Source: Desulfosediminicola flagellatus (GTDB lineage: Bacteria > Desulfobacterota > Desulfobulbia > Desulfobulbales > Desulfocapsaceae). Taken from it: a stretch of 64,000 nt of DNA. A model generated the notes under the pieces. The model did not search any database. It worked only from the letters and a program-made list of their open reading frames with translations, and was not told where the DNA came from. The stretch's first letter is position 1, and every line of letters begins with the position of its first letter. This document shows, piece after piece, positions 34,762 through 58,429 of the stretch. The stretch spans positions 4,876,001 through 4,940,000 of the forward strand of contig NZ_CP050698.1 in assembly GCF_005116655.2 (NCBI RefSeq), written 5' to 3'. Both the position numbers and the translations under genes were made by a program.

Positions 34762-34956
34762 TTACTCTTCTTTTTCGATGCACTCCGCAGGACACGAAGC
34801 AATTGCCTCATCTACACAATCCTCATCCCCATTTGCACCTTCTACCACATATGCTTTTCCCTCATCATCATCGAAATTAAAAACCGAAGGGCAGATCTCA
34901 ACACACGCTTCGCAACCAATACACTCGTCCTGGTGGATCACTACTTTCTTAGCCAT
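34762..34956 (-). CDS. Ferredoxin with one [4Fe-4S] cluster
   Basis: A 64-residue ferredoxin of the monocluster type known in sulfate reducers. Cluster ligands are C12, C15, C18 (CIGCEACVEIC) and, from the C-terminal half, C55 followed by Pro. C22 and C47 could form a disulfide, as in Desulfovibrio ferredoxin I type proteins. It is strongly acidic. It lies 80 bases downstream of a cupin gene on the same strand and appears to share the sigma-54 promoter at 35471-35486, so its expression is probably induced under a specific signal rather than constitutive. Confidence 0.92.
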   Translation of the reverse strand: MAKKVVIHQDECIGCEACVEICPSVFNFDDDEGKAYVVEGANGDEDCVDEAIASCPAECIEKEE

Positions 34957-35036
34957 AATATTCTCCTGTTTTGCCTTGTCTGTCAGGCGGTCACTTCCAT
35001 ATGATACGCACTTTAATTTAACCTGCTGATAGAGAG

Positions 35037-35357
35037 TTAAATTGGAGGTGCAATGGTAACCAGAATTCTCATTCTGGTACTGGCACGCACGCCGTGTGGT
35101 TCTCGAATTTGAGAAATGAGTATATCACCTTGAGTTGCAGGTATCTCAGCACCAGCATCTCCAAGAAAATAGCCTTCTCCCTCTATAACCTGAATAGAGA
35201 GCTCACCATCCAGATCATGGGAATGGACTGGGAAAGTGACATCTTTATCGAGGTTAAAATTAACAATCTTGAAATTTGGTGAATTTTCCACAAGGAAAAA
35301 TCGTTTCATCGCCTCAGGGGTGAATTCATTTGTTTCAGTGAGCTTTATGACTTTCAT
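35037..35357 (-). CDS. Small cupin-domain protein
   Basis: A 106-residue single-domain cupin. The conserved metal-site region reads FPVHSHDLDGELSIQVIEG, giving the first cupin motif (HxH with downstream Glu), and the second motif is represented by REPHGVRA. One metal, probably Fe, Mn or Ni, can therefore be bound. The domain is too small and general to assign a reaction; it may be a sensor, isomerase or dioxygenase-type enzyme. It is first of a two-gene unit with a ferredoxin, behind a near-perfect sigma-54 promoter. Confidence 0.82.
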   Translation of the reverse strand: MKVIKLTETNEFTPEAMKRFFLVENSPNFKIVNFNLDKDVTFPVHSHDLDGELSIQVIEGEGYFLGDAGAEIPATQGDILISQIREPHGVRASTRMRILVTIAPPI

Positions 35358-35470
35358 ACGATTCTCCGTTCAGTTTGATATTACGGGTCTGCAAAATGGA
35401 ATGTGACTCATTAACGCTTTCAATAATAATTGGCCTGTCACCATCGCTCTCCGTCATGTACCTTATACAT

Positions 35471-35486
35471 AGCAAACAACGTGCCA
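35471..35486 (-). promoter_or_regulatory. Sigma-54 promoter of the cupin-ferredoxin unit
   Basis: On the minus strand TGGCACGTTGTTTGCT matches TGGCAC-N5-TTGCW exactly. Predicted start near 35459 leaves a leader of about 100 bases before the cupin ATG. The element closely resembles the one before the Fe-alcohol dehydrogenase (TGGCACGCTGCTTGCT), with 14 of 16 positions the same. Confidence 0.85.
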
Positions 35487-35555
35487 ATATTTTAACATGC
35501 TTTTTCAGTATGATAGCTACATCGTTATCCATACCATAACATGGAAGATGCTGTA

Positions 35556-35639
35556 CTTTTCACAACTATGTTGTTCTTTTCACATCGCTGAGGAACACAA
35601 AAACATGACCGAAACAGCAGTTCTTCCTCGTGTGAAAAG
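35556..35639 (-). promoter_or_regulatory. Candidate activator binding sites (three CTTTTCACA copies)
   Basis: CTTTTCACA occurs at 35556-35564 and again at 35576-35584, exactly 20 bases apart, and in inverted form TGTGAAAAG at 35631-35639. They lie about 70-155 bases upstream of the -24 element, the usual position for sites of a sigma-54 activator. The number and spacing suggest a real upstream activating sequence. Confidence 0.5.
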
Positions 35640-35747
35640 ATCTATCCACAATGTGCTTTTGTTTTAGACAATTACCTGCGACGCGAGATTAAACACAGTC
35701 CAACTCCCTTATACAGATCCTCAGCCATAAAAATAAAGCCTCCCCAA

Positions 35748-36210
35748 ATGTGTAAAACACTGACGTATCGTTATATAGAAATTAAAAACGTCTACACTTC
35801 CAAAAGAGATGCATTGAGAAATAGCGTATCGATTAAAGCTGATAGCAATGCAACTATCCGTGTAAAGAACCATGCAGGTGACGAAATATTAGCCGTGGTA
35901 CCATAATACAGCCCCCAGAAACTCGTCTTACAAACGAAAATGCTGAAGCTGCATAGGTTTATCTTGCGTCCTCTCATCCAATGAGTGTTCCGGCTTTTAC
36001 GGAAGTGGTGAACATCAGGAAGAATCCGCCAAAATGCTTCCGGCAGAAATGAGAAAACCACTCACCGAAGCACCTTGTGAAATTGCTTATGGAATATATG
36101 ATAATGAATGGTTTGCCGAAGAAGCAAAATCCCTCCTGCTCTCTTCACCGGATGCACCGTTGTTTACCAACCTGCTAACACAACAATACTATCTGCTCTG
36201 GCAATTGTAG
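35748..36210 (+). pseudogene. Decayed coding region
   Basis: Two short plus-strand open frames with protein-like composition: one of 52 codons at 35748-35906 (ending VKNHAGDEILAVVP) and one of 58 codons at 36034-36210 (MLPAEMRKPLTEAPCEIAYG), open upstream to about 35947 without a start. Neither has a ribosome site. They look like fragments of broken genes. A further coding-like scrap lies near 36270-36340. From 36350 to 36790 I see nothing. No family is recognised. Confidence 0.35.
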
Positions 36211-36794
36211 AACGAGTGTCAACCTGCCCCAAATTATTAAAAAAAACGTATGTTAAATAATTAGATTATGCCAAATCCATTGTTTTTGCCGATACCGATC
36301 TCAATGCTACCCGTGCAGGGCCAAATGGTTTCAAAATGTAGGAATCTCCATATGCAACGACACCGAATAGGGGCTTGTTGACTATTTCATACACGCGACA
36401 TTGGACGCCCCTAATGTATCGGTTAAGCACTGGAGTTCGGCATTATTGGTATAAATGTAGGAATTATATCAAACGAGGTGGCAGCGTGTTGCAGGCTCAA
36501 AGAATCCGGCAATGATCGACAAGAATCCCAAATACGCAAAGGACAATTATCTCGAAATTAGATATCTCTGCCTAGGAGGTTCTCCGAGAATAGGAATTTG
36601 GGTCAAAGTCGAGGCGTTCTCAAAAAACGAGCACAGCCATATATATGATATTCAATGTATTGTTTTTTGATAATAACGAAGAGTTTGGAACCAAGGCCAT
36701 TGTCGGACAGCCTCTTAAGAGAAGGCTAATAGATAATCGACATATACAAGTAGATATTTGATGATTGAGTCTTTCCCAGGATAAAAAACAAAAA

Positions 36795-36836: not shown

Positions 36837-36922
36837 TGGTGCCGAAGACGAGAGTCGAACTCGTACAGGCTCAGCCTACTGCGCCCTCAACACAGCGTGT
36901 CTACCAATTCCACCACTTCGGC
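36837..36922 (-). tRNA. tRNA-Leu (anticodon GAG), copy 1
   Basis: An 86-base leucine tRNA with encoded CCA. The acceptor stem GCCGAAG/CTTCGGC is perfect. The anticodon stem-loop is CTGTG-TTGAGGG-CGCAG, giving anticodon GAG. A long variable arm is present, as required for leucine tRNAs. It is identical to the second copy 242 bases away. Confidence 0.95.
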
Positions 36923-37078: not shown

Positions 37079-37164
37079 TGGTGCCGAAGACGAGAGTCGA
37101 ACTCGTACAGGCTCAGCCTACTGCGCCCTCAACACAGCGTGTCTACCAATTCCACCACTTCGGC
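37079..37164 (-). tRNA. tRNA-Leu (anticodon GAG), copy 2
   Basis: Same 86-base leucine tRNA as at 36837-36922, identical across the whole tRNA including CCA and anticodon GAG. It precedes copy 1 in the direction of transcription and follows secG by about 20 bases. It could be transcribed with secG or from its own promoter. Confidence 0.95.
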
Positions 37165-58331: not shown

Positions 58332-58429
58332 TGGCGGAAGTGCATGGGAATCGAACCCACCTAGCGAGCTATTAACCCGCTACACCGGATTTGAAGTCCG
58401 GGAGGGCCACCAGTGCCCTGTCCACTTCC
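58332..58429 (-). tRNA. selC: Selenocysteine tRNA (anticodon TCA)
   Basis: A 98-base tRNA with CCA encoded. It begins GGAAGTGG and ends GCACTTCCGCCA. The anticodon loop, CTTCAAA within GGACTTCAAATCC, reads UGA, and there is an extra-long variable arm. Length, extended acceptor stem and anticodon match bacterial selC. The organism therefore decodes UGA as selenocysteine. No selenoprotein with an in-frame UGA was recognised in the window, and selA, selB and selD are not present here. Confidence 0.95.

Follow-up and report, generated by a model that had tools for sequence, protein, structure and literature searches.

The window, a stretch of 64,000 nucleotides from a 6.75-Mb genome closely related to Desulfopila, contains a two-gene unit on the minus strand that encodes a single-domain RmlC-type cupin and, after an intergenic gap of 80 bp, a ferredoxin with a single [4Fe-4S] cluster (Table 1). 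The gene calls and an exact match to the -24/-12 (sigma-54) element, TGGCACGTTGTTTGCT, bear out the preliminary description of a cupin-ferredoxin pair behind such a promoter. The ferredoxin gene converges with a D-serine ammonia-lyase gene, and between the two an inverted repeat, TTAAGGCACCGC-N9-GCGGTGCCTTAA, was read from the sequence; it is a possible shared terminator of both genes with the T run missing, and it was not among the output of a terminator scan with a loop limit of 8. Upstream of the cupin promoter, about 1 kb (35650-36750) contains short ORFs only and no clear gene, followed by tandem tRNA-Leu(gag) genes at 36837-36922 and 37079-37164 (minus strand); the ORFs listed opposite both tRNA genes, which encode one and the same repeated peptide, are unlikely to be genes. 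A selenocysteine tRNA gene is present at 58332-58429 (minus strand), so the organism probably makes selenoproteins.

Table 1. Positions of the features at the cupin-ferredoxin locus within the window; offsets were counted from the first base of the -24 element
Feature	Position	Strand	Size or match	Remarks
Inverted repeat TTAAGGCACCGC-N9-GCGGTGCCTTAA	34708-34740			between convergent genes
Ferredoxin gene	34762-34956	-	64 aa	Desulfovibrio Fd I/II type
Cupin gene	35037-35357	-	106 aa	single-domain RmlC type
-24/-12 element TGGCACGTTGTTTGCT	35471-35486	-	exact match
NorR-type site 3 GTTATGGTATGGATAAC	35524-35540	-	8/10	offset -54; core GT/AC replaced by AT/AT
NorR-type site 2 GTTGTGAAAAGTACAGC	35550-35566	-	9/10	offset -80; includes CTTTTCACA copy 35556-35564
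CTTTTCACA, direct copy	35556-35564	+		within site 2
NorR-type site 1 GATGTGAAAAGAACAAC	35570-35586	-	9/10	offset -100; includes CTTTTCACA copy 35576-35584
CTTTTCACA, direct copy	35576-35584	+		within site 1
CTTTTCACA, third copy	35631-35639	-		inverted; outside the NorR array

The AlphaFold2 model of the cupin (pLDDT 93.5) confirmed a double-stranded beta-helix fold. The closest solved structure was PDB 2q30 (Dde_2303; E 4e-27 with the window cupin, TM-score 0.92 and 50% identity to the model), an RmlC-like Desulfovibrio cupin with no function assigned, and a literature search found no paper naming Dde_2303. Against Pfam Cupin_2 the window cupin scored 23.8 bits, under the cut-off of 27.2. Metal ligands were assessed by the presence of His, His, Glu and His in cupin motifs 1 and 2: H45 and H88 were found in 141/141 relatives and H47 in 140/141, and position 52 was occupied by E in 80, Q in 48 and D in 12 of the 141. 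The ferredoxin matched Fer4_13 with 59.8 bits (curated cut-off 24.5), and its nearest structures were D. gigas Fd II and D. africanus Fd I. Knowledge of the two families leads one to expect a metal site in the cupin and a role as electron donor for the ferredoxin.

Three copies of CTTTTCACA had been reported at the promoter in the preliminary description, and all three were found; they are the only copies in the window. Against an expected number of 0.94, three copies were attained in 3/100 shuffles, a 9-mer count that by itself is no more than slightly out of the ordinary; throughout the 6.75-Mb genome the direct pair is found a single time. When the coding strand is read, the direct copies form the middle of the 17-bp inverted repeats GATGTGAAAAGAACAAC and GTTGTGAAAAGTACAGC, which are a stronger signal than the 9-mer counts. 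Predicted activator sites do lie upstream of the promoter, as had been proposed for CTTTTCACA, but their motif is GTTGT-N7-ACAAC, with two copies sharing the core TGTGAAAAG. CTTTTCACA was absent upstream of the cupin in every relative examined and was ruled out as a regulatory unit, being missing in relatives and accounted for by the 17-bp sites. Loss of the motif in relatives had been named beforehand as grounds for giving up the proposal; this applies to the 9-mer, and the 17-mer is conserved. The inverted third copy, initially counted as part of the activator site, is kept in 0/10 relatives and was for this reason rejected as a regulator site; it is probably there by chance.

The NorR consensus is GT-N7-AC (PMC1274295), and GTTGT-N7-ACAAC, the motif common to the cupin regulatory regions of the relatives, is by its sequence a form of it. 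Sites 1 and 2 stand in tandem with the strict core intact. Site 3, which had been overlooked, agrees with the wider consensus at 8/10 and lies at a conserved place, and its occupation is less certain because the GT and the AC of the core both read AT (AT-N7-AT). Three sites at approximately -100, -80 and -55 were found in 10/10 relatives whose cupin is preceded by a sigma-54 element, with shifts of 1-2 bases in individual relatives and a weak match at some single sites. The triplet of the window scored 26/30, a value reached by 0/20,000 shuffles, which averaged 12.4 and did not exceed 21. Ahead of the cupin, the sigma-54 element was also kept in 13 further distinct loci, all of which likewise have the NorR-type triplet. 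Exact copies of TGGCAC-N5-TTGC are not in themselves uncommon, the genome having 26 compared with 11 for the reversed control pattern, and upstream of the other 25 elements the triplet score was at most 16. A loose NorR half-pattern was uninformative across the whole genome (157 matches versus 140 in the control).

One clear NorR orthologue is encoded in the host genome (69% identity; 42% for the next enhancer-binding protein), 1.2 Mb from the pair (G000:C1:6098980-6100527; 6.099 Mb). It reached 670.2 bits with the NCBIfam NorR model NF003451 (cut-off 476), and the protein of a relative 686.7 bits. The host protein retains the residues equivalent to E. coli D96, D99, H111, C113 and D131, which we take to be the iron ligands of the GAF domain. 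The iron centre of E. coli NorR is disrupted when C113, H111 or D99 is changed (PMC2941729). Most relatives that possess the triplet have norR next to the cupin in divergent orientation. Beside the host norR, NorR-type sites are also present between norR and a lut-type operon (L101:8744-8968), where no recognisable sigma-54 element accompanies them upstream of the operon; these sites are perhaps a remnant of an older norR-cupin arrangement.

A different sigma-54 activator might bind the CTTTTCACA-type sites and answer to another signal, for example that of the dehydrogenase 23 kb away, and both the number of enhancer-binding proteins in the genome (41 matches at E below 1e-60) and the distance of norR from the pair would fit this. 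The dehydrogenase promoter (12031-12016) had been described as almost the same as the cupin promoter, but the sigma-54 core is all that the two have in common: the region upstream of the former has a triplet score of 11/30 and no NorR-type sites, and on this ground it was ruled out that the dehydrogenase at 12 kb is controlled jointly. Moreover, the 17-bp sites are conserved in the relatives, whereas CTTTTCACA is not, and norR itself stands divergently next to the cupin in most of the relatives that have these sites. Control by another activator is thus considered very unlikely.

Further targets of NorR were searched for with a composite pattern consisting of two NorR sites and a sigma-54 element at the right distance. 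In the host genome the cupin promoter matched with 0 mismatches, the promoter of a flavodiiron NO reductase gene with 1 mismatch (approximately 0.3 kb before the gene) and a third place with 2 mismatches. The flavodiiron protein passes model PRK11921, and its promoter is the sole other convincing candidate for a NorR/sigma-54 promoter in this genome. When 93 genomes of the family were searched and 1 mismatch at most was allowed, the pattern matched at 7 places, comprising 5 cupin and 2 flavodiiron promoters. The reversed pattern gave 3 matches in the same genomes, so false hits occur and the match count in itself carries little weight; the striking point is that every one of the 7 lies at an NO-linked gene. 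The norR, cupin, ferredoxin and flavodiiron genes are all neighbours in Desulfopila sp. IMCC35008; in the host genome norR, the flavodiiron gene and the cupin-ferredoxin pair are found in three separate places.

From three conserved NorR-type sites, a divergent norR in relatives and the flavodiiron gene as the other predicted target, we infer that the cupin-ferredoxin unit is very probably an NO-inducible operon of the NorR regulon, a grading that concerns its regulation and leaves the chemistry of the cupin aside. The promoter architecture, the gene associations and the presence of a NorR orthologue with the iron-ligand positions are supported by the sequence comparisons. In the proposed mechanism, NorR encoded 1.2 Mb away would bind three tandem GTTGT-N7-ACAAC-like sites approximately 100, 80 and 55 bp upstream of the -24/-12 element; NO bound to the iron of the GAF domain would cause NorR to activate sigma-54 RNA polymerase, so that cupin and ferredoxin are made, and the flavodiiron NO reductase gene, with the same kind of promoter elsewhere on the chromosome, would be co-induced. 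The ferredoxin would most likely donate electrons to NO-removing enzymes (the flavodiiron protein and possibly Hcp), and the cupin, whose predicted metal site is rich in His, would most likely use that metal to act on NO or an NO product, or to buffer it.

Relatives of the cupin were found in 76/93 genomes of the family and in 80 of the 296 genomes sampled across the phylum, where some matches were weak. A ferredoxin gene is the same-strand downstream neighbour within 350 bp in 37/141 distinct cupin loci, and hcp, flavodiiron, qNOR or norR genes occur in the flanks examined in 41/141; the chance neighbour rate of approximately 1% is an estimate from gene counts in the host genome alone, and the 141 loci are mutually related. 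Hcp in L127 and a NorB-type qNOR in L111 were confirmed by protein models. The cupin from Desulfovibrio sp. MES5 (L119:6001-6318) is 74% identical to the window cupin and was possibly gained by transfer.

Of the 85 cupin copies without the triplet, 23 have TTGAC-N4-GTCAA at 9/10 or better upstream (0.4 in shuffles). This is the HcpR motif of delta-proteobacteria other than Desulfovibrio (PMC1274295), and an FNR-type regulator could take the place of HcpR at these sites. The host itself has a second cupin (L032:7123-7440; G000:C1:6163122), 83% identical and without a ferredoxin, with a perfect TTGAC-N4-GTCAA (10/10) at -109, where HcpR-type and FNR-type sites are indistinguishable. Two unrelated types of regulator appear to control the cupin family; the cupin tree, with 106 columns, is too short to resolve how often the regulator changed. 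These observations bear on the idea that the TGTGA parts at the window promoter are half-sites of a CRP/FNR-family regulator (such as HcpR or Rex) and that the sigma-54 element is coincidental. The Desulfovibrio HcpR site is indeed wTGTGAnnnnnnTCACAw (PMC1274295), and the frequent TTGAC-N4-GTCAA upstream of copies without sigma-54 sites would agree with such control. At the window promoter, however, the best match to TTGAC-N4-GTCAA was only 6/10, which does not place it in the HcpR regulon, 0 of 13 triplet-bearing promoters had a match of 9/10 or better, and the spacing between the sigma-54 element and the sites is near-fixed across relatives. A CRP/FNR-type regulator at this promoter is accordingly regarded as highly improbable, and control by NorR is preferred.

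The part played by the cupin was considered separately. It may be a housekeeping or stand-in protein with an indirect link to NO, for example one replacing a metal-damaged enzyme; such a role is a matter of function and could go together with control by NorR. Some cupin copies adjoin unrelated genes such as leuA/ilv or murC, and in 68/141 loci the tests applied revealed no nearby NO gene and neither of the regulator motifs, as would be expected of such a protein; its repeated association with hcp, flavodiiron, qNOR and norR and the two kinds of NO-linked regulator sites argue in the other direction. On balance an indirect role is rather unlikely, though it deserves consideration. A bolder and still less likely suggestion would make the cupin an NO-processing protein of a new kind: supplied by the ferredoxin, this mononuclear non-haem metal enzyme would reduce or otherwise transform NO or an NO-sulfide product in sulfate-reducing bacteria.

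The preliminary description had not recognised the pair as a described system, and no such description was found in the literature search, nor was any paper linking a cupin to NorR in this group; the text of the D. vulgaris sigma-54 regulome paper contained neither 'cupin' nor 'nitric'. What would be new is a target and partner pair within a known regulatory system, together with a putative link of this cupin family to NO defence. A widespread uncharacterised family would thereby gain a testable physiological setting in nitric oxide defence, and the NorR regulon of sulfate-reducing bacteria would be extended past the known NO reductases. Since sulfate reducers are naturally inhibited by nitrite and NO, the way in which these organisms cope with them is relevant to sediments and to souring control.

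Among known systems, Ferredoxin I/II of D. africanus and D. gigas resemble the ferredoxin described here in size and [4Fe-4S] type; here the gene lies in a cupin operon under predicted NorR-type control. In Desulfovibrio desulfuricans, the cupin gene and hcp of the Ddes_1828-hcp operon were both NO-induced in RNA-seq, the cupin gene beside hcp with a log2FC of 4.4 (PMC5701242); a cupin gene adjoining an NO-defence gene is the common feature, the two cupins being set side by side by description only, and that operon differs in being controlled by HcpR, not by NorR/sigma-54. NorR-like regulators are reported to control roo in Desulfovibrio gigas (PMC4287179), another sulfate reducer that combines NorR with a flavodiiron NO reductase; the passages on this control name no cupin-ferredoxin target. 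A further counterpart is E. coli NorR-norVW, in which three enhancer sites are essential (PMC2941729): shared with it are a sigma-54 promoter, three tandem GT-N7-AC-type sites over 45 bp (spacings of 21 and 24 at norV, 20 and 25 in the cupin relatives; in the window the core of site 3 is altered), a flavodiiron target, a divergent norR (in most relatives) and the GAF iron-ligand positions. Unlike norVW, the predicted targets here include a cupin and a separate ferredoxin, the consensus is GTTGT-N7-ACAAC, the flavodiiron protein is without a rubredoxin domain, norR, flavodiiron gene and pair are dispersed, and the array lies approximately 14 bp closer to the -24 element.
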